Below are positions 37,442-54,885 of a stretch of DNA of 64,000 bases, in pieces. The notes under the pieces are model-generated. The model saw only the letters and a program-made list of their open reading frames with translations, was not told where the DNA came from and did not search any database. The position numbers and the translations under genes were made by a program. This DNA comes from Paraburkholderia largidicola (GTDB taxonomy: Bacteria; Pseudomonadota; Gammaproteobacteria; Burkholderiales; Burkholderiaceae), in contig NZ_AP023176.1 of NCBI RefSeq assembly GCF_013426895.1, positions 496,001 to 560,000 on the forward strand. Direction: 5' to 3'. Within the stretch, counting starts at the first letter, position 1. Each line of letters starts with the position of its first letter.

Positions 37442-39007
37442 TTACGCGAATGCGTACCGGCCTTCATCGTCGCGGACGATGGTCCGCGTGGCGCCCGTAT
37501 CTTCGAGCCAGCGGACGATTTCGCGGCCGTCGCGCGTGCCCGTTGCCGACATCAACTCGGTGAAACGCTTCGGACCATGCGCGAGCGCGGCTTCGAGCGA
37601 GTCGAAGCGCGCACCCGTGAACGCCGGCGGCGTCGGCACGCGGTGTTCGAGATCGCGCTCCTCGCCCGGACGCAGCAGCGGCAGCGTGAGGTCGAAGCCG
37701 ACCTTTGCCGTCACTGCCGCGCCATCGAGCGACGGATCGAGTGGCATCGCGCGCATGCCGCTGTGCATCACGAGATCGCGGTCGGCCTGGAAGCGCGTCG
37801 CGAGTGCCCAGTCCATCTGCTCATCGGAGAAGATGTCGATGTCGGGATCGACGACGAACACATGCTTGACGTTGGCGAGCGACGCGAACACGGCGGCGAT
37901 CGCATTGCGCGCTTCGCCGGGCACGCGCTGTTGCATCGCGACGCGCACGTTGAACATGCCGCCCGTTGCGGGGCTCGCATACACGCTCCTGATCTCGCGC
38001 ACGGCCGTTTCGAGCGCGCGCCAGACGGTCACTTCCGTGCGCAGCGCGGCGAGTTGCGCGGTATCGGTGCGCGCCATCGTGCGACCGCCGATCGTGCAGG
38101 TCTGGAACACCGCATCCTTGCGATGCGTGATGGCCGTCAGATGAAACACCGGGTTCGTCTTGATGCCGCCGTAATAGCCAAGGAATTCGCCATACGGCCC
38201 TTCCGGCTCCGCGTGGCCGCGTTCATCCAGATAGCCTTCGAGGATGAACTCCGCGTCGGCGGGGACGAGCAGATCGTTCGTCACGCATTTGACGACGCCC
38301 ATCGGCGCGCCGCGCAACGCGGCGACGAGTTCGAGTTCGTCGGCGGGAATGCGCATCGTCGCGCCGATGTGGTCGATGGGATGCGTGCCGACGGCGAATG
38401 CGATCGGCAGCCGCTCGCCGCGCTTCGCGTGGGCAATGGCGATGGCGCGCAGATCCGACGGCGCGACGAGATCGACGCCCGCCGTGCGCCGGCCGCGCAG
38501 CATCAGGCGGCGAATGCCGACGTTGGTCCAGCCGGTGTCGGGATCGACGGCGAAGTCGATCGATGCGGAGATATACGGCGCGCCGTCCAGATCGTGCTGC
38601 AGATGCACGGGCAGCACAGTGAAGTCGCATTCGTCGCCCGTCAGCACGACCTGTTGCACGGGCGCTTCTTCGCGTCGCACTTCGACGAGCTTGCCTTTGC
38701 TGCGCAGACGGTCGCGCACGACTTCGAGCAGGTGCGCGGGCGTGGTGTCGAAGGCTTTGGCGAGGCGCGTACGGCTTGCCGCCACGCTGCCCGCCAGCGA
38801 CACCGTGCCGCCCGCCGGCTGCTGGAACCACACCGCGCGCGGGTTGCCTTCCATGATGCGGGCGATATCGGCGAGATCGACGGGCTCGTCGCGCCGTTCG
38901 AGTTCCGTGTCGTCGAGCGACGCGAGAAAACGCCTCAGACGGAAGCGTTCGAGGTCAGGCAGTTCCGCGCCTTGCGCGGTCGAAGGAATGGCTGTCTTGG
39001 GTCTCAA
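37442..39007 (-). CDS. UbiD family (prenyl-FMN dependent) decarboxylase
   Basis: This protein has 521 residues when started at the TTG at 39007, which has AGGA 8 bases upstream; a GTG at 39046 directly after the preceding stop is an alternative. Family landmarks are LPDLERFRLRRFLASLDDTE at the N-terminus, PYISASIDFAVDPDTGWTNV, GAPMGVVKC and the active-site segment HAEPEGPYGEFLGYYGG, which carries the conserved Glu pair. UbiD enzymes (de)carboxylate aromatic, heteroaromatic or acrylic acids using prenylated FMN. A UbiX-type prenyltransferase is encoded in the same array (48156-48734). It probably removes the ring carboxylate of the pathway substrate. Confidence 0.87.
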   Translation of the reverse strand: MRPKTAIPSTAQGAELPDLERFRLRRFLASLDDTELERRDEPVDLADIARIMEGNPRAVWFQQPAGGTVSLAGSVAASRTRLAKAFDTTPAHLLEVVRDRLRSKGKLVEVRREEAPVQQVVLTGDECDFTVLPVHLQHDLDGAPYISASIDFAVDPDTGWTNVGIRRLMLRGRRTAGVDLVAPSDLRAIAIAHAKRGERLPIAFAVGTHPIDHIGATMRIPADELELVAALRGAPMGVVKCVTNDLLVPADAEFILEGYLDERGHAEPEGPYGEFLGYYGGIKTNPVFHLTAITHRKDAVFQTCTIGGRTMARTDTAQLAALRTEVTVWRALETAVREIRSVYASPATGGMFNVRVAMQQRVPGEARNAIAAVFASLANVKHVFVVDPDIDIFSDEQMDWALATRFQADRDLVMHSGMRAMPLDPSLDGAAVTAKVGFDLTLPLLRPGEERDLEHRVPTPPAFTGARFDSLEAALAHGPKRFTELMSATGTRDGREIVRWLEDTGATRTIVRDDEGRYAFA

Positions 39008-39048
39008 TGTCGTGTCCTGATGTGCAGAGTGCGACGCGGTGCGCACCC

Positions 39049-39774
39049 TTAGAAGCGTGCTGACAGCGCAGTGGCCGCGAGGTGCGCGGCAAAGCCGCTC
39101 GAACCTGCGGCGGACATGTCGGGCGCGAGATGCAGGAACTGCTTGACGGCGCGCAGCGTGACGGCGCTGCAGCCGAGCAGCGTGTCGGCGAGCGCATCGG
39201 CTTCGTCGTCGAGCGACGCAACGGGCACCACGCGGCTCACGAGACCGGCAACGAGCGCGTCCTGCGCCGTCAGCCGCGCGCGGCTCAGCACCATGTGCGC
39301 AACCGTCTTCACGGGAACGCGCCCGATCAGCGCGGACATGACGAGCGTCGGCGGAATGTCGCGCTCCATTTCGGGGATCTGGAAGATCGCGTCGTCGGCG
39401 GCGAGCGCGACGTCGCACACGCCTGCCAGCGCGCAGCCGACCCCGATCGCTTCGCCGCGCACCACGGACAGCACGGGCACACGCACCGCTTTCAATGCGT
39501 CGTAGAGCGCGAGCGGCGGCGCGGCGACGACGCGCCGCAACGTTTCCGCCGACGGCTTGGCGCCTTGAGGCGGCATCGGCGACTGGCGGCCTTTGCAGAA
39601 GTCCTTGCTGCTGCTGACGATACGCACGAGCTTCGTATCGTCGTCGATCGTGGTGACGGCGGCGATGATGGCATCGCTCATCGGCTGATCGATCAGATTG
39701 CCGTTCTCAGGCCGGTCGAGCACGATGTCGAGCAGCGCGCCTTTGCGGCGGATAGCGACGGATTCAGTTGACAT
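39049..39774 (-). CDS. Enoyl-CoA hydratase/isomerase family protein
   Basis: This 241-residue crotonase-fold protein shows LDRPENGNLIDQPMSDAI, the first oxyanion segment DFCKGRQ, the second VVRGEAIGVGCALAGVCDVA and the region EMERDIPPTLVMSALIG with acidic residues near the usual catalytic positions. It lies between the Mo-enzyme large subunit gene (11-base overlap) and UbiD (41-base gap) and is therefore part of the operon. No CoA ligase is encoded in the array, so either the CoA ester is made elsewhere or this protein acts on a non-CoA substrate, such as a beta-keto or hydratable ring intermediate. Confidence 0.83.
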   Translation of the reverse strand: MSTESVAIRRKGALLDIVLDRPENGNLIDQPMSDAIIAAVTTIDDDTKLVRIVSSSKDFCKGRQSPMPPQGAKPSAETLRRVVAAPPLALYDALKAVRVPVLSVVRGEAIGVGCALAGVCDVALAADDAIFQIPEMERDIPPTLVMSALIGRVPVKTVAHMVLSRARLTAQDALVAGLVSRVVPVASLDDEADALADTLLGCSAVTLRAVKQFLHLAPDMSAAGSSGFAAHLAATALSARF

Positions 39775-42115
39775 GTGCGCCTCCTTGAGCGCGATGGATG
39801 TATTCCCAGACTACTTTCGGCGTGGCGGGCATCGCGAGTTCATCGTTGCCGTACTCGCGCAGCGCATCGGCGAGCGCGTTGAAAATCGTCGCTGTTGCAG
39901 GTGTGATGCCGCTTTCGCCGCCGCCTTTCACGCGCAGCGGATTGCCATGCGTCGGGTCTTCCGTCAGTTCCACATTGAGCGGCGGAATCACGCCGGCGCG
40001 CGGCATGCCGTAATCCATGTACGAACCTGTCAGCACCTGCCCCGTATCGCGATCCACGTAGAAGCCTTCGGAAAGCGCCTGGCCGATGCCTTGCGCGAGC
40101 CCGCCATGCACCTGACCTTCGACGATCAGCGGGTTGATCGGCTGCCCCACGTCGTCGACGGACGTGTAGTTGACGAGTTCCACCATGCCCGTATCGGGGT
40201 CCACTTCGAGCTCGCAGATGGCGGCGCCCGTGGGATGCGCGGGAACACGCGTGTTGACTTCGGCGTGTGCGTAGAGCTTTTTCATCGACGGGTCGCCGGG
40301 CACGCCGTCCTTTGAAACTTGGCGCGCAACTTCGGCGAGACTGATCCGCTTGCCCGAGGCGGACGCGGTGAACGACGCATTTGCGAATTCGACGTCGGAT
40401 GCGTCCACGCCGAACAGCGCGGCGGCCACCTGCTTGCCCGTTGCGACGATCTGCTGCGCGGTATCGACGAGCAGCATGCCGCCCAGGCGCATCGTGCGGT
40501 CCGAGTGGCTGCCGCCGCCGACGCTCACGAAGGCCGTGTCGCCCGTGCGCAGCGTCACGGCTTCCATCGGCACGCCGAGCTGATGCGCGATGACCTGCGC
40601 GAACGTGGTTTCGTGGCCCTGGCCCGTCGACTGCGTGCCCGACACGATATCGACGCTGCCGTCCGCGCGTACCGTCAGTTCGATGCGCTCGCGCGGCGCG
40701 CCGACGGGCGACTCGATGTAGTTCGCCAGGCCGATACCGCGCAAGCGGCCGTTTGCCCGCGATTGCGCACGGCGCGTCTCGAAGCTGTCCCACTGCGCGA
40801 GCGTCAGCGCGCGCGCCATGTTGCGCTCGAATTCGCCGCTGTCGTACGTGAGGCCCATCGGGCTGCGGTACGGCAGCTTGTCGTGCGTGACGAGATTGCG
40901 CCGGCGAATTTCCGCGCGCTCGATACCGAGTTCGGCAGCGGCGAGATCGAGCATGCGTTCGATCACATGCGTCGCTTCGGGCCGGCCCGCGCCGCGATAG
41001 GGCGCAGTCGGCACCGTGTTGGTCATGACGGCGCTGACGTGCACGGCGGCCACGGGCACGTCGTAGACGGTCGTCATGATGCGCGTGCCATTCGACATCG
41101 GCACGTAGGACACCGTATGCGCGCCGACGTTGCCGATCCATTCGTTGTCGATGGCGAGAATGCGGCCGTCTTTCGAAAAGCCGATTGCGGAACGGATGAT
41201 CGCGTCGCGGCCCTGATAGTCGGACAGGAATGCTTCGCTGCGGTCGCTCGTCCACTTCACCGGCCTTCCGATGCGTCGCGCGGCCCACACCACAGCCAGT
41301 TGCTCGACGTAGACGAACGAGCGTGGTCCGAAGCCACCGCCCGTATCGGGGCAGACGACGCGCATCCGGGCAGGCGGCACTTTCAACGCGGCGGCCAGCA
41401 CCAGTTGCTGGCGCACTGCGCCCTGACTGCCGGAGATCAGCGTGTAGACGTCGTTGGCCGCGTCGTGCATGCCGATCGCGCTGCGCGGCTCCATCTGGCA
41501 ATTGACGAGCCGGCTGTGATGAAACTCACGGCGGATCACGTGATCCGCTTCCGCGAGAATCTTGCGCGCGGCTTCGCGGTCGCCGATCTGCGTCTGGAAG
41601 CACAGGTTGCCCGGCGCGCCGTCCCACAGTTGCGGCGCGTCGGGCTGCATCGCGTCGGCGCCGTTGATGACGGCATCGAGCACGTCGTAATCGACTTCGA
41701 TCAGCTCCGACGCATTGCGCGCCTGCAACGGCGTTTCGGCGATCACCATCGCGATCGCCTCGCCGACATAGCGCACGCGGTCGACGGGCAGCGGAATATG
41801 AAGCTGATTGAAGATCGAACCCGTCAGCGACGTGAGGAAAGCCTTCTTCGTCGCGTCGACGGCGTCGACGGGATTCGGCACATGATCGACGCCCTGAAAG
41901 CCATCGTCGAGATAGTCCTGGCCGACCAGCACGGCGATCACGCCGGGCGCTTGCTGCGCGGCGCTGATATCGACAGAACGCAATCCTGCATGCGCGTGAG
42001 GCGAGCGCAGAAAGGCCGCATGCAGCTGGCCATCGACGCGAATATCGTCGGTGTACTGGCCGTTGCCCGTCACGAAGCGCTGGTCTTCGACGCGAGGTAT
42101 CGGTTTGCCGATCAT
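39764..42115 (-). CDS. Molybdenum hydroxylase large subunit (CoxL/XDH family)
   Basis: The protein has 783 residues from the ATG at 42115, overlapping the 2Fe-2S subunit by 4 bases. It shows GKPIPRVEDQRFVTGNGQYT at the N-terminus, the molybdopterin contacts CPDTGGGFGPRSFVYVEQ and TAPYRGAGRPEATHVIERM, QSTGQGHETTFAQ, and the C-terminal GGGESGITPATATIFNAL with the catalytic glutamate. The active-site loop PYRGAGR is close to the AYRGAGR of form II CO-dehydrogenase-like enzymes and lacks the AYxCSFR of true CO dehydrogenase, so hydroxylation of an aromatic or heteroaromatic ring is more likely than CO oxidation. It functions with the S and M subunits below. Confidence 0.9.
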   Translation of the reverse strand: MIGKPIPRVEDQRFVTGNGQYTDDIRVDGQLHAAFLRSPHAHAGLRSVDISAAQQAPGVIAVLVGQDYLDDGFQGVDHVPNPVDAVDATKKAFLTSLTGSIFNQLHIPLPVDRVRYVGEAIAMVIAETPLQARNASELIEVDYDVLDAVINGADAMQPDAPQLWDGAPGNLCFQTQIGDREAARKILAEADHVIRREFHHSRLVNCQMEPRSAIGMHDAANDVYTLISGSQGAVRQQLVLAAALKVPPARMRVVCPDTGGGFGPRSFVYVEQLAVVWAARRIGRPVKWTSDRSEAFLSDYQGRDAIIRSAIGFSKDGRILAIDNEWIGNVGAHTVSYVPMSNGTRIMTTVYDVPVAAVHVSAVMTNTVPTAPYRGAGRPEATHVIERMLDLAAAELGIERAEIRRRNLVTHDKLPYRSPMGLTYDSGEFERNMARALTLAQWDSFETRRAQSRANGRLRGIGLANYIESPVGAPRERIELTVRADGSVDIVSGTQSTGQGHETTFAQVIAHQLGVPMEAVTLRTGDTAFVSVGGGSHSDRTMRLGGMLLVDTAQQIVATGKQVAAALFGVDASDVEFANASFTASASGKRISLAEVARQVSKDGVPGDPSMKKLYAHAEVNTRVPAHPTGAAICELEVDPDTGMVELVNYTSVDDVGQPINPLIVEGQVHGGLAQGIGQALSEGFYVDRDTGQVLTGSYMDYGMPRAGVIPPLNVELTEDPTHGNPLRVKGGGESGITPATATIFNALADALREYGNDELAMPATPKVVWEYIHRAQGGAHVN

Positions 42116-42621
42116 GACGCGTGTTCCTCCGTCTTCGCGAAGGGCGCTTCGGGGTACATCTCGCGTGCGGCGTGGCGCACCGCTTCGATGATGTTCACGT
42201 AGCCCGTGCACCGGCAGATGTTGCCTTCCAGCGCGTGACTGATGCTCGCCACATCGAGCGCCGGTTCCTTGCGCAGATAGAACGCGCTGGCCATGATCAT
42301 GCCGGGCGTGCAAAAGCCGCACTGCAGGCCGTGGCACTGCACGAACGCATTCTGCACAGGGTGCAGCTTGCCGCCGCATTGCGCGCTCAGACCTTCGACG
42401 GTCACGACCTGTCCGCCGCTCGCCTGAGCCGCGAGCACCGTGCAGGACTTGACGGCGTTACCGTCGAGATGAACGGTGCACGCGCCGCATTGGCTCGTAT
42501 CGCAGCCAACATGCGTGCCCGTCAGCCGCACATGCTCGCGCAGAAATTCGACGAGCAGCGTGTTGTCGGGCACGGCGTGCGAGACGTCCGTGCCGTTCAC
42601 CTGAAGCTGGACTTCAACCAT
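42112..42621 (-). CDS. Molybdenum hydroxylase small 2Fe-2S subunit (CoxS family)
   Basis: This 169-residue protein is a two-cluster iron-sulfur subunit. The N-terminal plant-type ferredoxin domain has [16 protein letters not shown] and a following KSC; the C-terminal domain has [12 protein letters not shown] and [12 protein letters not shown]. All eight cysteines are present. It carries electrons from the molybdenum site in the large subunit to FAD in the medium subunit. Its stop codon overlaps the start of the large subunit gene, which ensures coupled synthesis. Confidence 0.92.
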
Positions 42622-42654
42622 GATTCACCTGTCTTTCCCGTTCGTGCAGCGTGC

Positions 42655-43116
42655 TCATTCGGCAGCGGGTTCGTTCGCTGCGCTGAGCGTCGCGTTGAAG
42701 CGCTTGAAGAACTCGGCCGCGAGCTTGTTCGCCACCGACGTGACGAGCCGCGAGCCGATCTGCGCGAGCTTGCCGCCCACCTGCGCTTCGGCCACGTAAG
42801 TGAGCAGCGTGCCGTCTTCGGCATCGGCGAGCGTGACGGTCGCCGTCATCTTGCCGAAGCCCGCAATGCCGCCTTCGCCCTGGCCGAGAATCCGGTAGCC
42901 ATTCGGCGCATCGCGTTCGGACAGTTCGAGCGTGCCCTTGAAGCGCGCTTTCACGGGCCCGACGGAGGCGACCACGACGGCCTTGTACTCGTCTTCGTTT
43001 TCCGCCGTGAAGGCTTCGCAGCCGGGAATGCATTCCTGCAGCACGGCCGGGTCGTTGAGTCCTTGCCATACCTGTTCGCGCGATGCCGCGATGGTTTGCG
43101 ATCCGGTGAATTCCAT
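42655..43116 (-). CDS. CoxG-like SRPBCC domain protein
   Basis: This 153-residue CoxG family protein starts MEFTGSQTIAASREQVWQGL and continues with NDPAVLQECIPGCE, VGPVKARFKGTLEL, AGFGKMTATVTL and VGGKLAQIGSRLV, all family hallmarks. CoxG helps to anchor or recruit molybdenum hydroxylases to the membrane and its SRPBCC pocket can bind a quinone or lipid. It lies between the FAD subunit and the 2Fe-2S subunit genes, so the order is M-G-S-L. The membrane-anchoring C-terminal segment of longer CoxG proteins is missing here, so the protein may be soluble or use another partner. Confidence 0.87.
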   Translation of the reverse strand: MEFTGSQTIAASREQVWQGLNDPAVLQECIPGCEAFTAENEDEYKAVVVASVGPVKARFKGTLELSERDAPNGYRILGQGEGGIAGFGKMTATVTLADAEDGTLLTYVAEAQVGGKLAQIGSRLVTSVANKLAAEFFKRFNATLSAANEPAAE

Positions 43117-43143
43117 CCTGTTCTCCTGAATTGAGCGGCGTCG

Positions 43144-43947
43144 TTACGACGCGAGCAGCGCCTGCAATGCGCGGCGGGTATAGGTTTCGATCAGATGTGC
43201 GCGATACGATGCGGACGCGTTGGCGTCGTCGGGCAGCATGTCGCGGTCGATCCACAGCGATGCGAGCGCGGCTTCCGACAAGTCCTGTTGCAACGCGGCT
43301 TCCGCATCGAGCCAGCGGAACACCGACGCGCCCGCGCCCGTCACGGCGACGCGCACGGCATCGTCGTACTGCGCGATGAACACGCCCGTCACCGCATAAC
43401 CCGATGCTGGGTGCCGGTACTTCGCATAGGCAGCGCGGCGCGGAATGGCGAACTCGATCGCGGTGACGAGTTCGTCGGCTTCGAGCGCGGTTTCGAATGT
43501 GTCGATGAAATAGTCGTCGGCGGGAATGCGTCGCTGCGACGAGGTGATGATGTGCGCGTTCAGCGCGAGCACGGCGGACGGATAGTCCGCTGCCGGGTCG
43601 TTGTTCGCGACCGATCCGCCCATCGTGCCGCGGTTGCGCACCTGCGGATCGGCGATCACGCTGGCCAGATGCGCGAGCGCGGGAATCGCTTCGCGCACGA
43701 CATCGGAGGCGGCCACTTCCGCGTGCTTCATCAGCGCGCCGACATGCAGCGTGTCGCCGCGCACTTCGATGCCGCGCAGTTCGCCGATGCGCGTGAGGTC
43801 GATCAGATGCGACGGCGCGGCGAGGCGTTGCTTGAGTGTCGGGATCAGCGTCATGCCGCCCGACAGCGGCCGCGCTTCGTCATGCTCGCGCAACCAGGCG
43901 ACCGCTTCGTCAAGCGACGCTGCGCGCAGATAAGTCGTCTCGTACAT
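43144..43947 (-). CDS. Molybdenum hydroxylase FAD-binding medium subunit (CoxM family)
   Basis: The protein has 267 residues from the ATG at 43947, behind GCAGGAG. The FAD-binding motif of the family is present twice: ARPLSGGMTLIPTLKQRL near the N-terminus and RNRGTMGGSVANNDPAADYP near residue 105. It passes electrons from the iron-sulfur subunit to an acceptor such as a quinone. It is the first of the four Mo-hydroxylase genes. A short tandem repeat separates it from the alpha/beta hydrolase gene upstream. Confidence 0.9.
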   Translation of the reverse strand: MYETTYLRAASLDEAVAWLREHDEARPLSGGMTLIPTLKQRLAAPSHLIDLTRIGELRGIEVRGDTLHVGALMKHAEVAASDVVREAIPALAHLASVIADPQVRNRGTMGGSVANNDPAADYPSAVLALNAHIITSSQRRIPADDYFIDTFETALEADELVTAIEFAIPRRAAYAKYRHPASGYAVTGVFIAQYDDAVRVAVTGAGASVFRWLDAEAALQQDLSEAALASLWIDRDMLPDDANASASYRAHLIETYTRRALQALLAS

Positions 43948-44000
43948 GTTGTCTCCTGCGGCATGCGTGTGGTCATCGCGCATGCCTGACTTCTGTGTTG

Positions 44001-44060
44001 ACCGCTATGGCCCGCTATGGTCCGCTATGGTCCGCTACGGTCCGCTATGGTCCGTTAGGC
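44001..44060. repeat. 10-base tandem repeat (five good copies, one decayed)
   Basis: Units of the form NCCGCTATGG fill 44001-44050 (the fourth has CTACGG), followed by a decayed sixth unit at 44051-44060. On the minus strand the unit contains TAG, and the stop codon of the alpha/beta hydrolase gene (44045-44047) lies inside the array. The 10-base period equals about one DNA helical turn. It looks like a slippage-prone minisatellite in the intercistronic region ahead of the Mo-hydroxylase genes. Confidence 0.9.
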
Positions 44061-44818
44061 TCCGAGAGCCAGTTTTCCAGCGCAGTGGCGAGCGCGACGG
44101 GCACTTCGTACATCGGGTAATGTCCCGCGTTCCGCAGCGTTTCCAGCGTGGCGTTCGGATACCACGCGAGCCATGTGCGCGTCATCAGGTCTGCCGTGAT
44201 GGTCGGATCATGCTCGCCGACGAAGAGCTTCACAGGCGTCGGGTTGCCGTCGACCTGCGCGGCGAAGTCTCCTGTGGCCCATTGCGGCAGATAGCCCGCG
44301 AACGCTTCGCGCCGCGAGTCGCGCAGCGACAGTTGCGCGAGATGCGCGCTCCACGGCGACGCGAGCCGGCTGCCCGTCGAAAAGTGAATGATGCCGGCGC
44401 GCTTCGCGACGTCGTCGATGCAGGCGGAAAACATCGCGACGCGCGCTTCGTCCATGCGCGAGCCGCACGCGGGCACGGCGGATACGCCCGCCATTTTGAC
44501 GATCCGCTCGGGCGCGGCGAGCAGCACGCGCTGCATCGCCATGCCGCCCATCGAATGGCCGATCAGGCTGAAGCGCTGCCAGTCGAGATGATCCGCGAGC
44601 GCGAGCACGTCGCGCGCGGCTTCGTCGAACGTGAACGCGCCGTCGATATCACGCGACAGCCCATAGCCGCGATAGTCGAAGAACGCATAGGAGAAGCGTT
44701 CGGCATCGAGCGCCGGCGTGAGCGCGTGCCAGTCGGCGGCACTGCCGAACCAGCCGTTCAGTGCGATGACCTTGTGCGGGCCGTGTCCGAATTGCCGGAA
44801 ACCGTTGAGCGTCGTCAT
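44045..44818 (-). CDS. Alpha/beta hydrolase of the catabolic cluster
   Basis: This 257-residue serine hydrolase has the nucleophile elbow IGHSMGGMAMQ (about residue 94), acid in VGEHDPTIT and histidine in RNAGHYPMYE. The oxyanion region is ALNGWFGSAADW, with Asn where most homologues have His. It starts only 3 bases after the fumarylacetoacetase stop codon, so the two are tightly coupled. A role in hydrolysing a ring-cleavage product, an ester/enol-lactone or an N-formyl intermediate is inference. The stop codon is provided by the tandem repeat, so slippage there could change the C-terminus. Confidence 0.82.
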   Translation of the reverse strand: MTTLNGFRQFGHGPHKVIALNGWFGSAADWHALTPALDAERFSYAFFDYRGYGLSRDIDGAFTFDEAARDVLALADHLDWQRFSLIGHSMGGMAMQRVLLAAPERIVKMAGVSAVPACGSRMDEARVAMFSACIDDVAKRAGIIHFSTGSRLASPWSAHLAQLSLRDSRREAFAGYLPQWATGDFAAQVDGNPTPVKLFVGEHDPTITADLMTRTWLAWYPNATLETLRNAGHYPMYEVPVALATALENWLSEPNGP

Positions 44819-44821
44819 GGT

Positions 44822-46162: not shown

Positions 46163-46695
46163 GCGGGGCGTGTCTCCGATACAGCTTTATCTTTTTCAGC
46201 GGTCCAGGCGTCGAGCGCCGGCCGAGCTCGCATTTTATAGCCTGCCAGCTCTTCGACGGGCGCAACCGGGACGGTCAGCTCGACGCGCAGTCCGTTCGGA
46301 TCGAAGAAATAAATGGAGCGCACGAAATGATGGTCGGTGACGCCGAGCACGTCGATACCATGTTCGATCAGGCGCGCTTTCATCGCTTCGAGCTGTTCGA
46401 GCGTTTCGAGCCGCAGCGCGATGTGATTGACCCACGAAGGCGTGTTCGGCGAGGGCAAGGCAGCCGTCGCATCGCCGAGGTCGAAGAACGCGATGTTCGA
46501 CCCGTCGGCCATTTCGAAGAACACGTGCACATACGGGCAGTATTCGCCCGTGCTCGGCACGCGGTCGAGGCGGATCACATGGACGAGCTGCAGGCCGAGA
46601 ATGTCTTCGTAGAAATGGCGCGTTTCTTCGGCGTCGCGGCAGCGCCACGCAAAATGATGCAGGCCGAGCACGGGCGCCGGGCTGGAGTTGGACAC
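46159..46695 (-). CDS. VOC family protein, candidate ring-cleavage dioxygenase
   Basis: This 178-residue vicinal-oxygen-chelate protein has two beta-alpha-beta-beta-beta modules. Metal-ligand candidates are H13/H14 (GLHHFAWRC), H91 (VNHIALRLE) and E139 (NGLRVELTVP), a His-His-Glu set like that of extradiol dioxygenases and some glyoxalases; D72 occupies the fourth position. Its start lies 46 bases from the stop of the FAD monooxygenase gene and its stop overlaps the FAH gene start. As the array encodes no other ring-cleaving enzyme, I infer that it may cleave the ring or isomerise the product. A lyase or isomerase role is equally possible. Confidence 0.75.
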   Translation of the reverse strand: MSNSSPAPVLGLHHFAWRCRDAEETRHFYEDILGLQLVHVIRLDRVPSTGEYCPYVHVFFEMADGSNIAFFDLGDATAALPSPNTPSWVNHIALRLETLEQLEAMKARLIEHGIDVLGVTDHHFVRSIYFFDPNGLRVELTVPVAPVEELAGYKMRARPALDAWTAEKDKAVSETRPA

Positions 46696-47929: not shown

Positions 47930-47976
47930 TCGACGATTCGACCTCTTTCGTAATGGGCGCGTTTTATCGACGTTGC

Positions 47977-47994
47977 TTATCAATCAATCGATAA
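47977..47994 (-). promoter_or_regulatory. Motif upstream of the monooxygenase gene, shared with the porin promoter
   Basis: Read on the minus strand this is TTATCGATTGATTGATAA, with TTATC/GATAA ends. Fifteen bases, TCGATTGRTTGATAA, recur with one difference at 48876-48890 upstream of the porin, in the same orientation relative to the gene. It lies 48 bases before the monooxygenase start. A binding site for the cluster regulator is inference. Confidence 0.4.
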
Positions 47995-48155: not shown

Positions 48156-48734
48156 TCACATGCCCCAGCGTTGCACCGTCGCGGTGTCCAGTCCGAACAG
48201 ATCGAGCACGCGGCCGAGCGTGTGGTCGACCATGTCGGTCAGCGATTCCGGGTTCGCGTAGAAGGCGGGCACGGGCGGATAGACGATCGCGCCCGCTTCC
48301 GTGACGGCCGTCATGCTGCGCAGGTGGCCCAGGTGCAGCGGCGTTTCGCGCACCATCAGCACGAGCCTGCGGCGCTCCTTCAGCGCGACGTCGGCGGCCC
48401 GCGACAGCAGGCCCGCCGTCATGCCCGTGGCGATCTCCGACAAGGTCTTGATGGAACAGGGCGCGACGATCATGCCCATCACGGGGAACGAGCCGCTCGA
48501 AATGGACGCGCCGATATCGGTGTTCGAATGGCAGACGCTCGCCATCGCGCGGATGTCGGCGACGTTGTAGTCCGACTCGTGCGCGAGCGTGACCTGCGCG
48601 GAGCGGCTCATCACGAGGTGCGTTTCGATGTCGAGCTTGCGCAGCAGTTGCAGCAGCCGTACACCGTAAATAACGCCCGACGCGCCGCTGATGCCGACCA
48701 CCATGCGCCGGGGCGGCATGCCTCTCATATCCAT
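48156..48734 (-). CDS. ubiX: UbiX family flavin prenyltransferase
   Basis: This 192-residue protein starts behind GGGAGAG. FMN- and phosphate-binding elements are visible: VVGISGASGVIYGVRLLQLL, the SSGSFPVMGMIVAPCSIKTL stretch, RRLVLMVRETPLH and the C-terminal FYANPESLTDMVDHTLGRVL with the conserved Asp/Arg pair. UbiX joins dimethylallyl phosphate to FMN and so produces the cofactor of UbiD decarboxylases. Its presence with a UbiD gene (37442-39007) makes this a dedicated catabolic UbiD/UbiX pair rather than the ubiquinone enzymes. It is divergent from the porin gene. Confidence 0.9.
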   Translation of the reverse strand: MDMRGMPPRRMVVGISGASGVIYGVRLLQLLRKLDIETHLVMSRSAQVTLAHESDYNVADIRAMASVCHSNTDIGASISSGSFPVMGMIVAPCSIKTLSEIATGMTAGLLSRAADVALKERRRLVLMVRETPLHLGHLRSMTAVTEAGAIVYPPVPAFYANPESLTDMVDHTLGRVLDLFGLDTATVQRWGM

Positions 48735-48890: not shown

Positions 48891-49044
48891 ATAATTCGCG
48901 ATTCAAAGCCGTAAATACGTTGGATACACTCTCGGCAACATATGGCAGACCACGGGCATCCGGGTACGGATTCACCGCACTCGCCAGATGGGGATCAGCC
49001 GGCACGCAGCCGGCTGGCGACAATAAAGACATTGGAGACACTGG

Positions 49045-50136
49045 TTGAAAACGACGAGTCTGCTGTTAGGCGGCTGTGCGGTCGCGCTGAGTTGCCCCGC
49101 GTTCGCGCAGTCATCGGTGACGCTGTACGGGAGCATCGACGTCGGCGTCGATTTCGTTTCGAACTCGCGCGGCGCGCATCTGTATCAGGAATCGGCGGGC
49201 AAGCGCACGCCGGACCGCTTCGGCTTTTTGATCAAGGAGGATATCGGCGGCGGCAACACGGTGTTCGCACGGCTCGAATCGGGCTTCCTGACCAACACGG
49301 GCGCGCAGATCAATCCGACGAGCTTCTTCAATCGCGATGCGTACGTGGGCATTTCGAACGACCGGTTCGGCTCGCTGAGCCTCGGCCACATTCCCGACTA
49401 CGTATACGAATATGTCGGCGGACTGAACAACTCGGTGCCGGGCATCTCGTCGTTCTATACGGTCGGCAATCTGGACGGACTCGCGAACACCCGCGCGCTC
49501 GACAACTCGGTGAAGTACGAGACGATCGATTTCTACGGCTTTCAGGCCGGCGTGATGAACAGCTTCGGCAATCAGACCAACTTCAGCGACGGTCGCCAGT
49601 ACAGCATCGGCGCGCGCTACCAGAATGGCATCGTGAAACTGGGCGCGGCGTATTCGATGTCGCACAACCGTACCGCGGACCTGTTCGGCACGTTCGGCGT
49701 GACGTCGGTGCTCGGTCAGACGCTGAAGCAGGGCGTGCTTTTCAACGCGGAACGGTACAGTACGATTGCCGTCGGCGGCTCGGTTTCGGTCGGCGATTTC
49801 ATCCCGCACGCCACGTTTACCGACGTGAAGCTCGAAGATCCGCAGGGCTCGGTGACCGAGCGCAACTACCAGGTCGGCGTGAACATCGATCTGAGCGGCG
49901 GCAAGCGCTTCTACGTGCTGGGCATCTCGTACAACCGTTCGATGTTCGAAGGGCTGACGTACAACCAGTACAACCTGTTTCTGACCCATTACCTGTCGAA
50001 GAGCACGCAGATTTACGGGGGCGTCGGCTTGCAGCGCGCGTCGGGTACGGGCGCCAAGGCCGAGCAGTTCGGCTACCAGCCGTCGAGTTCGAGCGCGCAG
50101 ACGGTTGGACGCATCGGTATCAATCACATGTTCTGA
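49045..50136 (+). CDS. Outer-membrane porin (Burkholderia general porin family)
   Basis: This 363-residue precursor starts at a TTG (49045) with GGAGA 7 bases upstream. A signal peptide of about 21 residues ends in PAFA before QSSVTLYGSIDVGVDFVSNS, the standard first strand of Burkholderiaceae trimeric porins. Alternating strands continue to a C-terminal phenylalanine (GRIGINHMF), which is the outer-membrane sorting signal. The family forms 16-stranded beta barrels. Its position opposite ubiX and before two aromatic-acid transporters suggests uptake of the pathway substrate across the outer membrane. Confidence 0.9.
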   Translation: MKTTSLLLGGCAVALSCPAFAQSSVTLYGSIDVGVDFVSNSRGAHLYQESAGKRTPDRFGFLIKEDIGGGNTVFARLESGFLTNTGAQINPTSFFNRDAYVGISNDRFGSLSLGHIPDYVYEYVGGLNNSVPGISSFYTVGNLDGLANTRALDNSVKYETIDFYGFQAGVMNSFGNQTNFSDGRQYSIGARYQNGIVKLGAAYSMSHNRTADLFGTFGVTSVLGQTLKQGVLFNAERYSTIAVGGSVSVGDFIPHATFTDVKLEDPQGSVTERNYQVGVNIDLSGGKRFYVLGISYNRSMFEGLTYNQYNLFLTHYLSKSTQIYGGVGLQRASGTGAKAEQFGYQPSSSSAQTVGRIGINHMF

Positions 50137-50375
50137 TGCGTGCGGCGGGAGGCGATATGGCGTGAGGACGTCGGTGTAGCGGGTGAAGGAGCGGGAAGGG
50201 CAACGGGGTAGGGCTTTCTTCACTTTTTTCGATCTGATCATCGAGATTTTTTGATTCTGTCGCTTGCCGGCGGGCCGTATATTGAGGCTCCCGGCGGCGG
50301 CGCCAAAGGAACGCAGCACGGGGCGGCGGCGCACAGCAAACGCGTTGCCGGCCGATCAGGCACATTGGAACGCAC

Positions 50376-51758
50376 ATGCAAGCAGACCGCACATTCAACA
50401 TATCGACTCTCATCGAAGAGCAAAAAACAGGACGTTTCGCCGTTGGCCTGCTGTTCTGGTGTTTCCTGATCATGCTGATGGACGGCTACGACCAGACGGC
50501 CGTGTCGTTCGCGGCGCCCGCGATCATCAAGGAGTGGCACGTCGCGCGCGGCGGTTTCGGTCCTGTCTTCGGCGCGGGGCTGTTCGGCACGCTGATCGGA
50601 TCGTTCATCTTCGGCTATTTCGGCGACCGCTTCGGCCGCAAGCGGGCCATCGTGTCGGGCAGTCTGTTCTTCGGGCTGCTGACGCTGGTGTCCGTGTGGG
50701 CGACGTCGTTGCCGGAACTGATGCTGCTGCGCTTCATCGCGGGGCTGGGCATGGGCGGCGTGGTGCCCAATTCGGTTGCGCTGGTGGCCGAATATGCGCC
50801 CAAGCGTTTGCGTGCGACGTGGGTCACGCTGATGTTCTCCGGTTTCTCGATCGGCGCGGGTTCGGGCGGTCTGGTTTCGTCGGCGTTGATTCATCGCTAC
50901 GGCTGGCCCGTGATGTTCGTCGTGGGCGGCGTCGGCTCGCTCGCGGTGGCGCTGCTGCTGATCGTCATGTTGCCGGAATCGGCAAAGCTGCTGGTCGTGC
51001 GAGAGCGCAGCATCGAAACGGTGCGCAAGCTGGTCGCGCGTCTGCGTCCCGACATTGCACTACCTGCGGACGCGCAATTCGTGCCCGGCGAAGTGCAGGA
51101 GAAAAAGCGCTTCGTGCTCAAGCTGATCTTCTCCGACGGCCTGCGCGCCATCACGCCGCTGTTGTGGATCGTCTTCATCGTCAATTCGATGGCGCTGTAT
51201 TTCCTGCAGAACTGGTTGCCGATCCTGATGGAAGGCGTTGGCATCAATCCGCAAAGCGCGGGCCTCATCACGACGATGTTCTCGGTGGGTGGCGTGCTCG
51301 GCGGGCTGATCCTGTGCCGCTTCGTCGATCGTCATGGTGTGCTGGCCATCATCTCGCTGCCGGCGATCGGCTGTCCCGTCGTTGCGTTGCTGGGGCACGG
51401 CATGTCCGAAGCGTGGCTGATGTTCGCGGTGTTCGCGACGGGCTTCTGCGTAGTCGGCGCGCAGTACGGGCTGTACGCGGTCGCGGGCATGATCTATCCG
51501 ACGTCGTTCCGCTCGGCGGGCGTGGGCAGCGCGATCTCGGTCGGCAAGATCGGCTCCGTGTCCGGGCCTGTGATCGGCGGCATTCTGCTGTCGATGCATC
51601 TGCCGTTCGCGCAGATGTTTTACGCAGCATCCGGCCTGTTTCTCGTCGCGACCGTCTTTTCGACGGTGCTGGCCGTGCTCTACAGGGCGCGATTCGGCGA
51701 TGAGCACAGCAAGGACAACACCGCCATCAAGATGCGCTCCGCGTTGGGCGATTCCTGA
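50376..51758 (+). CDS. AAHS-type MFS transporter (aromatic acid:H+ symport)
   Basis: This 460-residue transporter has 12 predicted transmembrane segments. The family signature DGYDQTAVSFAAPAI lies in TM1, the MFS motif GYFGDRFGRKRAI between TM2 and TM3, then AGLGMGGVVPNSVALVAEYA and PKRLRATWVTLMFSGFSIGA. These match PcaK/BenK/MhpT-like importers of hydroxybenzoates and phenylpropionates. It follows the porin gene by 239 bases and is paralogous to the next gene. The role is probably import of the cluster's aromatic acid, driven by protons. Confidence 0.9.
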   Translation: MQADRTFNISTLIEEQKTGRFAVGLLFWCFLIMLMDGYDQTAVSFAAPAIIKEWHVARGGFGPVFGAGLFGTLIGSFIFGYFGDRFGRKRAIVSGSLFFGLLTLVSVWATSLPELMLLRFIAGLGMGGVVPNSVALVAEYAPKRLRATWVTLMFSGFSIGAGSGGLVSSALIHRYGWPVMFVVGGVGSLAVALLLIVMLPESAKLLVVRERSIETVRKLVARLRPDIALPADAQFVPGEVQEKKRFVLKLIFSDGLRAITPLLWIVFIVNSMALYFLQNWLPILMEGVGINPQSAGLITTMFSVGGVLGGLILCRFVDRHGVLAIISLPAIGCPVVALLGHGMSEAWLMFAVFATGFCVVGAQYGLYAVAGMIYPTSFRSAGVGSAISVGKIGSVSGPVIGGILLSMHLPFAQMFYAASGLFLVATVFSTVLAVLYRARFGDEHSKDNTAIKMRSALGDS

Positions 51759-51895
51759 TCGCCGCGCGCGGCTGGCAACACGCTCGTCTTTTCAAGCTTG
51801 TCGATGCCTGATGTCGGGCTCGCTTCAGCGAGCCGGCGTCCGGCCGTCCCAGCTCGTCTTCCCGGCCCGATGCGATCTTCCTGGATAAAACAGCG

Positions 51896-53245
51896 ATGAA
51901 TACCGTCTCGCAGACCACTCGCACCATCGACGTGACCGCGCTCATCGAACGGCAAAAGCTGCGCGGCTTCTCGTTGTGCCTGATCGCGTGGTGTTTTCTG
52001 ATCGTACTGATCGACGGCTACGATCAGGTCGCCGCAGCGTATGCGGCGCCGACCTTGATTCGCGCGTGGCACGTGGATGCCGCGGGTTTCGGCCATGTGT
52101 TCGGTGTCGGCCTGTTCGGCGTGCTCGTCGGTTCGTTGCTGCTCGGCTTTATCGGCGATCGCATCGGACGGCGGCTCACGATCATTTACGGCTCGCTGTG
52201 GTTCGGCATCCTGACGTATGCATGCAGTGACGCGACGTCGCTGGATCAGTTGACCGTGCTTCGATTCTTCGCGGGCATCGGCATGGGCGGCGTTGTGCCG
52301 AATACGGTTGCGCTCGTGTCCGAATACGCGCCGAAGGCCCGCCGCGCGACGTGGATCACGCTGATGTTCTCGGGCTTTTCGATCGGCGCGGGTGGCGGCG
52401 GCGCAATCGCATCGTGGCTGCTGCCGCGTTACGGCTGGCCCGTGCTGTTCGAAGTCGGCGGCGTGGCGGCCGTGGTGGTCGCCGTCGCGTCGGTCTGGCT
52501 GTTGCCGGAATCGGTTCGCTTTCTGATACTCAATGGCCGCGCGGTGCGGCACATTGCGCGCATCGTGGGCCGGCTCGACCCGCGTATCGAACAAGGCGGC
52601 GCGGACGTGCGCTACGTCGTCGACGATGAAAAGCGTGTGCGCGCGACGCCGCTTGCTTTGTTCAGCAACGGCCTCGCCCGTGTGACGCCGCTGCTGTGGG
52701 TGCTGTTCGTGCTGAACTCGCTCGCGCTGCATTTTCTGCAGAACTGGCTGCCGATTCTCTTCAGCATGAGCGCACTGCCAGCGGGCCAGGCAGCAAAGGC
52801 CGCGATGATGTTCCCGGTGGGCGGCACGGTCGGCGCGCTCGCGTTGAGTCGCTGCGTGGACCGCTACGGGGTCGCGGTGATCCTGTTGCTGGCGATGCTG
52901 GGGCTTCCCGTGTGCATCTCGCTCGGCATGCCGATGCCCGCACTCTGGCTGTATGGCGCGTCGTTCATGAGCGGCGTGTGCGTGATCGGCTGTCAGTTCG
53001 CGCTCTATGCCGTGGCGGGCATGCTCTATCCGACGACGCTGCGCTCAGCGGGCGTGGGGTCCGCTATCGGTGTCGGCAAGCTCGGGTCGGTCGTCGGTTC
53101 GGTGCTCGGCGGCGTGCTGCTGGCGATGCATTTGCCCGTTGCACAGTTGTTCCTGAACGTGTCGGGAGTTTTCGTGTTCATCGCGTTGCTGTCGGTGTGG
53201 CTGGGTTGGAACCGGCGACGCGCCGCAAGCCAGTCGATCGCGTGA
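51896..53245 (+). CDS. AAHS-type MFS transporter, second paralogue
   Basis: This 449-residue, 12-helix transporter is clearly paralogous to the preceding gene. It shares the DGYDQVAAAYAAPTLI segment in TM1 (compare DGYDQTAVSFAAPAI), GFIGDRIGRRLTI, AGIGMGGVVPNTVALVSEYA and the STRUCTURE-conserving LMFSGFSIGAGGGG stretch. The two copies probably arose by tandem duplication and then diverged, perhaps for different substrates or for substrate and intermediate. A chemoreceptor gene starts 24 bases after its stop, so the transporter and receptor are likely co-transcribed. Confidence 0.9.
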   Translation: MNTVSQTTRTIDVTALIERQKLRGFSLCLIAWCFLIVLIDGYDQVAAAYAAPTLIRAWHVDAAGFGHVFGVGLFGVLVGSLLLGFIGDRIGRRLTIIYGSLWFGILTYACSDATSLDQLTVLRFFAGIGMGGVVPNTVALVSEYAPKARRATWITLMFSGFSIGAGGGGAIASWLLPRYGWPVLFEVGGVAAVVVAVASVWLLPESVRFLILNGRAVRHIARIVGRLDPRIEQGGADVRYVVDDEKRVRATPLALFSNGLARVTPLLWVLFVLNSLALHFLQNWLPILFSMSALPAGQAAKAAMMFPVGGTVGALALSRCVDRYGVAVILLLAMLGLPVCISLGMPMPALWLYGASFMSGVCVIGCQFALYAVAGMLYPTTLRSAGVGSAIGVGKLGSVVGSVLGGVLLAMHLPVAQLFLNVSGVFVFIALLSVWLGWNRRRAASQSIA

Positions 53246-53268
53246 TCGCTCAGTCAAGGGTTCATACG

Positions 53269-54885
53269 ATGCTTTCCACTCTCACCGCCGATCCCGCCGC
53301 GCTCACGTCCTCTTTTGCCGCAGCACCTGAGGCACGGCGCAAGACGGTGTCGCTGCAGCAGCGCATCGTGTTGACGATGGCGCTGCTGGCCTTGCTGATG
53401 ACGGCCATCGGCGTGCTCGGGTTGACGGGCGCGTGGCGCGCGAACCGCGCCAATCGCGATACCTACGAGAACAAGCTGACAGCGGCCATGCATATCGGCA
53501 ACGCCGAATTGCTGATCGCGCGCACGCGGCTCGTGCTCGGCGGCGCGATGGCTCAGGCGGATGCCGCGCGTGCCGCGGAACAGATTCGTCATGCCGACGG
53601 CTTCTTCGTGCAGTCGGACGAGGAGTGGCGCAGCTTCGTCGCGGGCGTGCACGAAGCGGGTGAGGCTGCGTTGATCGACGCAGCCGGCCAGCGCCGCGAC
53701 GCGCTGCGCCGTGCGATGGGTGCATTTCTCGATGCGCTGAAAGCGGGCGACCGCGCGAGCGCCGAGCGCATCGGCACGTTGCAGCTGAGCGGGCTGTTCA
53801 ACGACATGAGCGCCGCCAACGACGTGCTCAAGCGTGCACTCTATGCGAACGCGAAGCGCAGCTACGACGACGCGGAGCGCTATTTCAGGCTGTTCGTCGT
53901 GGTGTCGTCGGCGATGATCGTGTTCGGCGTCGCGGCGGCGGCGTTCAGCTGGCGCTCGCTGCGCCGCGCGATCATGGCGCCGCTCGGCGACGCGCTGACG
54001 CACTTCGACGCGATCGCCGCAGGCGATCTCAGCCGCGCGATTCCACGTCATCGCGCCGATGAAATGGGACAGTTGCTCGACGGTCTGCGGCAGATGCAGG
54101 TCCGGTTATCGCACACCGTGACGGCCGTGCGCGATAGCTGCGAATCGATTGGCACGGCGGTCGGCGAAATCGCGGCAGGCACGCTCGATCTGTCGTCGCG
54201 TACGGAAGAGCAGGCCGCCTCGCTCGAACAGACGGCGGCAAGCATGAGCGGACTGACCGACACCGTGCGGCAGAACGCGGCGCGCGCGCACGACGCCTAC
54301 GCGATCGCCGACGAAGTGGCGAGTGCGGCAAACGAAGGCAATGTCGCCGTCGATCAGGTGAGCAGCACGATGGCGCGCATCCAGGCGAGTTCACGCAAGA
54401 TCGCGGATATCACGGGGATCATCGAGGGCATTGCGTTTCAGACCAACATCCTCGCGTTGAATGCCGCAGTGGAAGCGGCGCGAGCGGGCGTGCACGGACG
54501 GGGCTTTGCCGTCGTCGCGTCCGAAGTGCGTTCGCTTGCGCAGCATGCGTCGACGGCTGCGAGGGAAATCGGCGTGCTGGTGGCGGATTCCGTGGGCGCG
54601 GCGGCGGACGGCTCGACGCTCGTCGCCGATGCCGAACAGTCGATCCGGGCCGTGCTCGATGCAGCCGGTCGTTTCAGGGAAATGATGAGCGGCATCGCCG
54701 CCGACGCCGAAGAACAACGCACCGGGATCGAGCAGGTGGATGCGGCGCTCGGCATGATGGGCGCGATCACGCAGCAGAACGCGGCGCTCGTCGAACAGGC
54801 CAGCGCAGCCGCTCAACTGCTCGACGAGCAGTCACGCGACCTGACGCGGCAGGTCGCGGTGTTCCGGGTGGGCGGCGTGGCGTGA
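53269..54885 (+). CDS. Methyl-accepting chemotaxis protein linked to the transporter
   Basis: The protein has 538 residues from the ATG at 53269, with AAGGG 9 bases upstream. A long polar N-terminus (about 27 residues) precedes TM1 (30-52), followed by a helical periplasmic domain to about 200, TM2 (FVVVSSAMIVFGVAAAAFSW), HAMP and a complete signalling domain (IAFQTNILALNAAVEAARAG, GRGFAVVASEVRSLAQ). It lies 24 bases behind the second aromatic-acid transporter. Chemoreceptors coupled to PcaK-type transporters are known from hydroxybenzoate-degrading bacteria, so its ligand is probably the cluster substrate. It converges with dgdA. Confidence 0.88.
   Translation: MLSTLTADPAALTSSFAAAPEARRKTVSLQQRIVLTMALLALLMTAIGVLGLTGAWRANRANRDTYENKLTAAMHIGNAELLIARTRLVLGGAMAQADAARAAEQIRHADGFFVQSDEEWRSFVAGVHEAGEAALIDAAGQRRDALRRAMGAFLDALKAGDRASAERIGTLQLSGLFNDMSAANDVLKRALYANAKRSYDDAERYFRLFVVVSSAMIVFGVAAAAFSWRSLRRAIMAPLGDALTHFDAIAAGDLSRAIPRHRADEMGQLLDGLRQMQVRLSHTVTAVRDSCESIGTAVGEIAAGTLDLSSRTEEQAASLEQTAASMSGLTDTVRQNAARAHDAYAIADEVASAANEGNVAVDQVSSTMARIQASSRKIADITGIIEGIAFQTNILALNAAVEAARAGVHGRGFAVVASEVRSLAQHASTAAREIGVLVADSVGAAADGSTLVADAEQSIRAVLDAAGRFREMMSGIAADAEEQRTGIEQVDAALGMMGAITQQNAALVEQASAAAQLLDEQSRDLTRQVAVFRVGGVA

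Follow-up and report, generated by a model that had tools for sequence, protein, structure and literature searches.

A conserved betaproteobacterial operon for the possible breakdown of an aromatic or fused heteroaromatic carboxylic acid

Introduction

Which compound is broken down by a Paraburkholderia largidicola gene cluster that sets a UbiD-family decarboxylase and a molybdenum hydroxylase beside genes suggestive of homogentisate-like ring opening is the question raised by this locus, which lies in a window of 64,000 nucleotides (the whole stretch of DNA that was analysed). The original prediction, that these genes serve the catabolism of an aromatic or heteroaromatic acid, is supported by gene content and conservation. 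It knew of no described pathway with this gene combination, in agreement with a search of the open-access literature, which gave no paper assigning the eleven-gene combination to a substrate.

Organization and conservation of the operon

The genes originally named are all present, on the strands given for them and within 37442-54885, and the gene list stands with corrections to CoxG, which is the ORF at 42655-43116, to the porin, which lies at 49045-50136, and to the starts of UbiD and CoxL given below. The probable operon reads UbiX-FMO-VOC-FAH-ABH-CoxM-CoxG-CoxS-CoxL-ECH-UbiD, plus a LysR gene, with a porin, two AAHS transporters and a chemoreceptor on the opposite strand:

36326..37285, minus strand: LysR-type regulator at the operon 3' end (Pfam HTH_1 and LysR_substrate; 29 of 29 full loci)
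37442..39046, minus strand: UbiD-family prFMN decarboxylase (UbiD, 193.9 bits)
39049..39774, minus strand: crotonase-fold protein (ECH) without the first hydratase catalytic glutamate (ECH_1, 103.8 bits)
39764..42115, minus strand: CoxL, molybdenum hydroxylase large subunit (MoCoBD_1 and MoCoBD_2)
42112..42621, minus strand: CoxS, [2Fe-2S] subunit (Fer2_2, 105.5 bits)
42655..43116, minus strand: CoxG (Pfam COXG, 124.7 bits)
43144..43983, minus strand: CoxM, FAD subunit (FAD_binding_5, 167.7 bits)
44045..44818, minus strand: alpha/beta hydrolase, ABH (Abhydrolase_1; GHSMG nucleophile elbow)
44822..46162, minus strand: FAH, long-form fumarylacetoacetase with altered substrate contacts (passes the NCBIfam fumarylacetoacetase model TIGR01266, 402.8 bits, cut-off 375.3)
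46159..46695, minus strand: VOC, probable single-domain ring-cleaving dioxygenase (best solved relative 9u42)
46742..47983, minus strand: FMO, flavin monooxygenase (FAD_binding_3)
48156..48734, minus strand: UbiX flavin prenyltransferase, prFMN for UbiD (TIGR00421, 243.2 bits, cut-off 108.9)
49045..50136, plus strand: porin (Porin_4, 155.6 bits; 28 of 29 full loci)
50376..51758, plus strand: aromatic acid/H+ symporter, AAHS (2A0115, 367 bits, cut-off 418.55; 27 of 29 full loci)
51896..53245, plus strand: second AAHS symporter (2A0115, 335.8 bits, cut-off 418.55)
53269..54885, plus strand: chemoreceptor, TarH-HAMP-MCP signal (Pfam; 14 of 29 full loci, with locus flanks that reach 10 kb only)

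With starts as annotated (those of UbiD, near 39046, and CoxL, near 42115, come from the annotation of a near-identical P. largidicola record), none of the nine junctions between FMO and UbiD exceeds 61 bases, and five are overlaps or gaps of 2-3 bases. The gap between UbiX and FMO is about 220 bases.

A search of other genomes for the neighbourhood, as proposed with the prediction, shows that it is conserved. All eleven genes are found in 29 of 80 relatives' loci (the best 80 of 296, retrieved by conserved VOC peptides and counted at an identity of at least 40% over half coverage, or 35% for a 390-residue hydrolase considered below), in the same order in 27 of the 29, and the gene set is thus not due to chance. 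One locus (L045) has part of its FMO cut off at a contig end, and another (L038) its UbiD. The eleven genes are about 55-97% identical across the full loci, which were found in Paraburkholderia, Caballeronia, Burkholderia, Cupriavidus and Massilia. UbiD (at least 40% identity) occurs in 31 of the 80 VOC loci, with CoxL and ECH in all 31, and within the genus, orthologs of VOC (at least 78%) and UbiD (at least 85%) occur together in 7 of 34 relatives. The second AAHS symporter is less well conserved: in many loci, what it matches (at 51-55%) is the first symporter. This conserved yet patchy distribution in betaproteobacteria points to an aromatic acid often met by these bacteria. The homologues listed for individual proteins are 120 of 6564 and 120 of 3784 (8000 candidates scored), so that percentages drawn from them hold for the nearest relatives, and most matches in Streptomyces, Rhodococcus, Novosphingobium and Agrobacterium fall outside the comparison.

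Probable ring hydroxylation and ring opening

The original prediction denied the presence of a gentisate or homogentisate dioxygenase, probably wrongly, as the closest solved structure to VOC, and its top fold match, is titled homogentisate 1,2-dioxygenase (9u42, Acinetobacter; E 3.7e-15, 41% identity, TM 0.74, for a model of mean pLDDT 74.7). VOC probably acts as a ring-cleaving enzyme of a family related to homogentisate dioxygenase, and residues H14, H91, E139 and Y129 are kept in 121 of 121 proteins (that of the window and the 120 homologues listed). In Acinetobacter baumannii, a VOC relative sits in the arrangement fahA-maiA-VOC-IclR-hppD of the tyrosine route, although VOC shares only 37-41% identity with the Acinetobacter proteins. 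FAH is present in 37 of the 80 VOC loci and a different, 390-residue hydrolase in 39, never both, with neither in 4. The VOC family is not uniform, since VOCs at 64-71% identity keep the other hydrolase and mostly (34 of 39) another monooxygenase as well; a Diaphorobacter VOC of the other-hydrolase type (L155) nests within the FAH-partnered tree group.

The catalytic-type residues of FAH are kept in all 37 VOC-partnered FAHs. The positions equivalent to Y128, R142 and R237 (mouse numbering), which we take to be probable substrate contacts, are L, K and K in the same 37 proteins, whereas four FahA proteins encoded next to homogentisate-type genes have Y, R and R (two from Acinetobacter, one from the same genome, and one from Paraburkholderia sp. 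PREW-6R). Because the FAH contacts are changed, no maleylacetoacetate isomerase is found in the operon (no GST-family Pfam match among the cluster proteins), and a separate HmgA-FahA homogentisate operon exists elsewhere in the genome, the ring that is opened is probably that of a homogentisate analogue, not of homogentisate itself.

FMO resembles 6-hydroxynicotinate 3-monooxygenase, 4-hydroxybenzoate 1-hydroxylase and 3-hydroxybenzoate 6-monooxygenase among solved relatives and NCBIfam models, the last being the best model (310.2 bits, cut-off 459). The solved enzymes of this kind are presumably para- or ipso-hydroxylating. In the case of PREW-6R, a 62% relative of FMO adjoins maiA-, FahA- and HmgA-type genes, but HmgA is present in only 1 of 19 FMO neighbourhoods aligned side by side. 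Relatives at 51-58% also adjoin a cupin and a short FAH, or p-hydroxycinnamoyl-CoA genes, and in Hydrogenophaga, FMO-VOC-FAH itself lies near cupin/short FAH- or p-hydroxycinnamoyl-CoA-type genes; since FMO relatives also adjoin genes of other pathways, they are no proof of a homogentisate-like product. Among 250 genomes of the order (that of P. largidicola included), 9 more FMO loci were found at 55-66% identity, several on short contigs, and HmgA, gtdA and VOC queries gave no match in them.

Partial clusters are informative about the order of steps. In Neorhizobium, UbiD-CoxL-ECH-FMO are together with no VOC or FAH within the same 25 kb, and the same plasmid carries another VOC, hydrolase and FMO. 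Three Comamonadaceae MAGs (L054, L057 and L061) have FMO-VOC-FAH with no Cox within 20 kb, a GST lying nearby in the latter two, and one Paraburkholderia has UbiD-ECH-CoxL-CoxMS with no FMO within 20 kb. FMO is the gene common to both half-clusters, an arrangement which suggests that UbiD, the molybdenum hydroxylase and ECH act before FMO, VOC and FAH, on the evidence of a few loci whose missing genes may sit elsewhere in the genome.

The decarboxylase and molybdenum hydroxylase genes

The E-R-E residues of UbiD are present in 120 of the 120 homologues listed, and the nearest solved structure is HmfF. The histidine described as the furan-specificity residue of HmfF, H297 (PMC7976604), is replaced by T in 118 and by S in 2 of the 120 listed, and is kept in the UbiD of a separate hmf-type operon in the same genome, which includes the UbiD, UbiX, CoxL, CoxG, CoxM, CoxS and ECH families. 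CoxL has CoxL 8uem as its best solved relative, and carries the motif YRGAGR in 25 of 33 aligned rows. In ECH, 36 of 37 relatives have A and one has G at the E144-type position, with the E164-type glutamate in all 37, whereas the HmfE-type protein of the same genome retains both glutamates. The two sets are only 27-57% identical, and the CoA ligase (furoyl-CoA synthetase) of the hmf-type operon has no counterpart here, as judged by the lack of AMP-binding Pfam matches among the cluster proteins.

A proposed pathway and its alternatives

From the gene content, its conservation, the residue patterns and the co-occurrence of genes, we propose, with about even confidence, that the operon serves the two-stage breakdown of a carboxylic acid, aromatic or fused heteroaromatic, that the cell imports. 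The lower stage is better supported than the upper. In the upper stage, UbiD with UbiX-made prFMN would remove the ring carboxylate, CoxLMS would place a water-derived oxygen on the decarboxylated product, and ECH, having lost one hydratase glutamate, would isomerise or tautomerise and not hydrate. The alpha/beta hydrolase, whose nearest NCBIfam model is 3-oxoadipate enol-lactonase (PcaD, 90.4 bits, below the cut-off of 255.85), would probably open a lactone or C-C bond. In the lower stage, FMO would hydroxylate the ring to a para-dihydroxylated ring with a side chain, VOC would open it in the manner of homogentisate 1,2-dioxygenase, and FAH would hydrolyse the resulting beta-diketone to central metabolites. 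One route would thus join a prFMN decarboxylase, a molybdenum hydroxylase and VOC-type homogentisate-like ring opening, with UbiD, crotonase and FAH clades whose consistent residue changes make the chemistry directly testable.

As to substrate, a speculative and in our view rather improbable candidate is an acid of the benzofuran-carboxylate type or a closely related fused O-heteroaromatic acid. Here, UbiD would decarboxylate, the molybdenum hydroxylase would oxidise the carbon adjoining the ring oxygen, ECH would tautomerise the product to a lactone that the alpha/beta hydrolase opens to a 2-hydroxyphenylacetate-type acid, FMO would hydroxylate para to the phenol, and VOC and FAH would open and split the ring. 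If true, this would assign a step to each enzyme gene, and its upper half would parallel the hmf furan route on a fused ring. The benzofuran would have to be substituted, because the unsubstituted compound gives homogentisate itself, disfavoured by the changed FAH contacts.

Other readings of the same genes can be weighed against the two-stage proposal. The stages could run in reverse on a two-ring substrate, with FMO-VOC-FAH first opening the carbocycle of a fused heteroaromatic acid and leaving a heteroaromatic acid for UbiD-Cox-ECH-ABH to degrade. The occurrence of the two blocks apart in other genomes is consistent with this, as is the likeness of UbiD to HmfF, with which the indole acid enzyme AnInD clusters (PMC8988006), but UbiD-CoxL-ECH-FMO without nearby VOC or FAH better fits FMO acting after the UbiD block, and we regard the reversed order as unlikely. 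Equally unlikely is a route of the hydroxyquinol or trihydroxytoluene type (cf. methylhydroquinone, orcinol), whereby FMO yields a trihydroxybenzene, VOC performs extradiol cleavage, and FAH hydrolyses a triketo acid. In its favour, the nearest VOCs that lie outside the FAH group are partnered by a protein annotated as an alpha/beta hydrolase and mostly by a 545-residue FAD monooxygenase, and trihydroxytoluene and 2,4,6-trioxoheptanoate are among the intermediates of the fenitrothion/Mhq route (PMC8571283). The homogentisate dioxygenase title of VOC's solved relative argues against it, as does the resemblance of FMO to para- or ipso-hydroxylating enzymes.

A second furoate/furandicarboxylate operon of the hmf type, with FMO-VOC-FAH a separate pathway joined by chance, would explain why the same families recur in both operons of this genome, and why some sources label UbiD relatives 2,5-furandicarboxylate decarboxylase 1. 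Given the absent CoA ligase, the replaced histidine, the lost ECH glutamate and the low identity between sets, this identity was set aside as very unlikely. Less likely still is a flavonoid-type (fde/ifc) route in which a larger plant compound would have its A ring cleaved, considered as a first reading of fumarylacetoacetase-VOC-FMO and rejected: a similar trio is known from descriptions only, and by Pfam matches nothing in the operon corresponds to the two cupins of ifc. The originally suggested likeness to nicotinate/quinolinate catabolism is not supported, as no Pfam match to a dihydroxypyridine ring-opening dioxygenase or amidase was found among the cluster proteins, and to our knowledge a long fumarylacetoacetase has no place in that route. 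No gene supports the kynurenate, quinolinate or isophthalate routes as we know them.

Comparison with known systems

The closer comparison, which the original prediction did not name, is with the hmf operon for furoate and furandicarboxylate (HmfABCDEFG), a copy of whose type lies in the same genome. Common to both are the UbiD/UbiX pair and CoxL, CoxM, CoxS, CoxG-like and crotonase genes; unlike hmf, the operon has no CoA ligase, no furan-specificity histidine, and an ECH short of one glutamate, and it adds the ring-fission genes FMO, VOC and FAH.

The ifc cluster, partly similar to fde, likewise combines a FAD monooxygenase with a member of the glyoxalase family and an alpha/beta hydrolase, as compared by description (PMC11069340). 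It differs in its cupins, and the words UbiD and fumarylacet- are absent from the main text of that paper.

The Acinetobacter fahA-maiA-VOC-hppD cluster likewise places a VOC-family, probably ring-cleaving enzyme beside a long fumarylacetoacetase, whereas the operon is without hppD and maiA, has the FAH contacts changed in 37 of 37 proteins, and adds UbiD, the molybdenum hydroxylase and FMO. Finally, the canonical HmgA-FahA operon of the same genome shares the FAH family and an adjacent AAHS transporter, but has a cupin-type HmgA in place of VOC, and a FAH that retains Y, R and R.

Gene organization and conservation of the operon

The inventory of genes and their division between strands made in the original prediction, including CoxM-CoxG-CoxS-CoxL, the porin, the AAHS pair and the chemoreceptor, was borne out in full.

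Genes of the island, by strand
Minus strand, in order: UbiX, FMO (flavin monooxygenase), VOC (probable single-domain ring-cleaving dioxygenase), FAH (long-form fumarylacetoacetase), alpha/beta hydrolase, CoxM, CoxG, CoxS, CoxL, ECH (crotonase-fold protein), UbiD, LysR regulator
Plus strand: porin, two AAHS symporters, chemoreceptor

The junctions from FMO to UbiD leave gaps of at most 61 bases and three gene pairs overlap (VOC/FAH, CoxS/CoxL and CoxL/ECH), so these genes are likely carried on a single transcript. The genome comprises 9.47 Mb in five contigs, and its FMO, UbiD, CoxL and ECH are 95-100% identical to Paraburkholderia caribensis / P. largidicola records. Directly past the LysR gene, on the plus strand (window 35225-36307), is an XdhC-family maturation gene whose product is likely a helper of the operon's molybdenum enzyme; six of the 80 loci described below, which have cut flanks, show a partial match to this gene at their margin. 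Elsewhere on the plus strand (window 19113-25067) is a gene whose product, of 1984 residues, combines protein kinase, AAA, GAF, PAS and histidine kinase domains.

The operon is real and conserved, patchily distributed, and catabolic. Loci were collected by querying genomes, one for each species, with 14 aligned VOC proteins; the best 80 of 296 were kept and fetched with 10 kb on each side of VOC, some being cut by contig ends. The conserved-neighbourhood search called for by the original prediction found the full eleven-gene set to recur, in 29 of these best 80 loci. The same order and strands, with LysR, porin and AAHS included, are seen in 27 of the 29, and in the other two, both from Massilia, UbiD and UbiX are placed apart. 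UbiD (at least 40% identity) is present in 31/80 loci, with CoxL and ECH alongside in every case, and the operon is found in 7 of 34 same-genus genomes. One strain that carries it is P. xenovorans LB400 (locus L036).

The VOC protein and its partners

The VOC structure was predicted from the 14-protein alignment (mean pLDDT 74.7), and its top PDB match by Foldseek is 9u42 (E 3.7e-15, 41% identity, TM 0.74), an entry known from its title only, as the crystal structure of homogentisate 1,2-dioxygenase from Acinetobacter. This entry is also the top sequence match, labelled Glyoxalase there; the open-access literature search found no paper on it. A VOC relative in A. baumannii lies in the neighbourhood fahA-maiA-VOC-IclR-hppD, and one in another Acinetobacter in fahA-maiA-VOC. 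His14, His91, Glu139 and Tyr129 are invariant in all 121 aligned sequences (the window's own VOC plus the 120 homologues listed), and are presumably, by analogy with extradiol dioxygenases, metal ligands and the catalytic tyrosine. Because of the 9u42 match, the Acinetobacter neighbourhoods and the retained residues, the original prediction was probably mistaken in denying the set a homogentisate-type dioxygenase.

The VOC partner among the 80 loci is FAH in 37, a different hydrolase of ~390 residues in 39, neither in four, and both in none. One 39-tip group of the FastTree tree takes in 37 of the 38 FAH-partnered VOCs (the window's own counted), together with those of locus L093, where no partner was seen, and of a Diaphorobacter locus (L155) with the other hydrolase; the VOC of locus L087 is FAH-partnered yet placed in the other-hydrolase group. 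The cluster of VOC and 390-residue hydrolase is itself frequent, found in locus L056 and 38 others, mostly Variovorax, within the best 80 of 296. It is joined by a 545-residue FAD monooxygenase in 34/39, and possibly represents a methylhydroquinone or flavonoid type of route; the hydrolase of L056 has no Pfam match at 1e-5.

FAH scores above the curated fumarylacetoacetase cut-off, and its metal- and catalytic-equivalent residues are preserved in all 37 VOC-partnered proteins. The positions matching Y128, R142 and R237 of the mouse enzyme, probable substrate contacts, are L, K and K in 37/37; Y, R and R occupy them in four FahA proteins that have homogentisate-type genes as neighbours (two from Acinetobacter, one from PREW-6R and one from a separate HmgA-FahA operon in the same genome as the island). 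Given this separate operon, the altered contacts and the lack of an isomerase gene within the operon, the diketone split by its FAH is probably not fumarylacetoacetate itself. A third long FAH in this genome (G000:C3:870000-888000, 47% identical) has a crotonase and a member of CoA-transferase family III encoded next to it; this FAH retains the Y128- and R237-type residues, and has L at the R142-type position.

The monooxygenase and the order of steps

Among solved structures, FMO resembles tropone 2-monooxygenase, 6-hydroxynicotinate 3-monooxygenase, and the decarboxylative 4-hydroxybenzoate and vanillate 1-hydroxylases, and its top NCBIfam model is 3-hydroxybenzoate 6-monooxygenase, with a score below cut-off. 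A 62% relative in Paraburkholderia sp. PREW-6R adjoins maiA-, FahA- and HmgA-type genes. Relatives at 51-58% adjoin either a cupin and a short FAH, or the 390-residue hydrolase and p-hydroxycinnamoyl-CoA genes, most with a VOC gene nearby; HmgA occurs in one of 19 FMO neighbourhoods compared. As judged from homology, the class fits hydroxylation of a phenolic-acid ring, a class that does not fix the substrate.

Partial clusters overlap in a chain-like manner, with FMO as the link. For instance, Neorhizobium petrolearium has UbiD-CoxL-ECH-FMO, and a Paraburkholderia has UbiD-ECH-CoxL with CoxM and CoxS, and with no FMO, VOC or FAH in the stretch. Three Comamonadaceae MAGs carry FMO-VOC-FAH with no Cox gene in the fetched stretch; Pigmentiphaga litoralis carries FMO-VOC-FAH with ECH-CoxL 7 kb away on the opposite strand. 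In the case of Hydrogenophaga palleronii (L058:10513-13289), short CoxM and CoxL fragments lie between FAH and ECH of FMO-VOC-FAH-ECH, as if the Cox genes had been lost. From FMO being the joint of these few loci, we infer that UbiD, Cox and ECH, and probably also the alpha/beta hydrolase, would act upstream of FMO, and VOC and FAH downstream. The Neorhizobium plasmid has a further VOC, hydrolase and FMO at another place, and thus a gene missing from a stretch may exist elsewhere in the cell. A Paraburkholderia (locus L152) has the full operon plus a separate UbiD-ECH-CoxL-AAHS-CoxM-CoxS cluster (UbiD 45%).

Comparison with known systems

The E-R-E residues of UbiD are retained in 120/120 homologues listed, and its closest solved relative is 6h6v, identified as HmfF in PMC8988006, which scores 213.9 bits against 142.5 for the best match to any other protein. 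Furan specificity of HmfF is attributed to H297 in PMC7976604, and roles of the genes of the furoate (hmf) operon are tabulated in PMC12064950. The column of this histidine holds T in 118 and S in two of the 120 homologues listed. The same genome has an hmf-type operon elsewhere (G000:C3:1205000-1223000), which encodes an AMP-binding ligase and a crotonase in addition to UbiD, UbiX, CoxL, CoxG, CoxM and CoxS; the genes common to both operons share 27-57% identity. Its HmfE-type crotonase has the E144-type glutamate, whereas this residue is replaced in the operon ECH (A in 36/37, G in 1/37), and the E164-type glutamate and an oxyanion-loop arginine are present in 37/37. On the roles that we assume for the E144- and E164-type residues, the operon ECH would have lost hydratase function. 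The closest solved relatives of the molybdenum enzyme include CoxL 8uem, 6-hydroxypseudooxynicotine dehydrogenase and quinoline 2-oxidoreductase.

Such residue changes in the operon enzymes predict a substrate different from those of their relatives. No assignment of the eleven-gene combination was found in the open-access literature, outside which subscription journals mostly lie. The operon is a new combination of modules that are themselves known, the closest described systems being hmf, the flavonoid clusters fde/ifc, and the homogentisate route.
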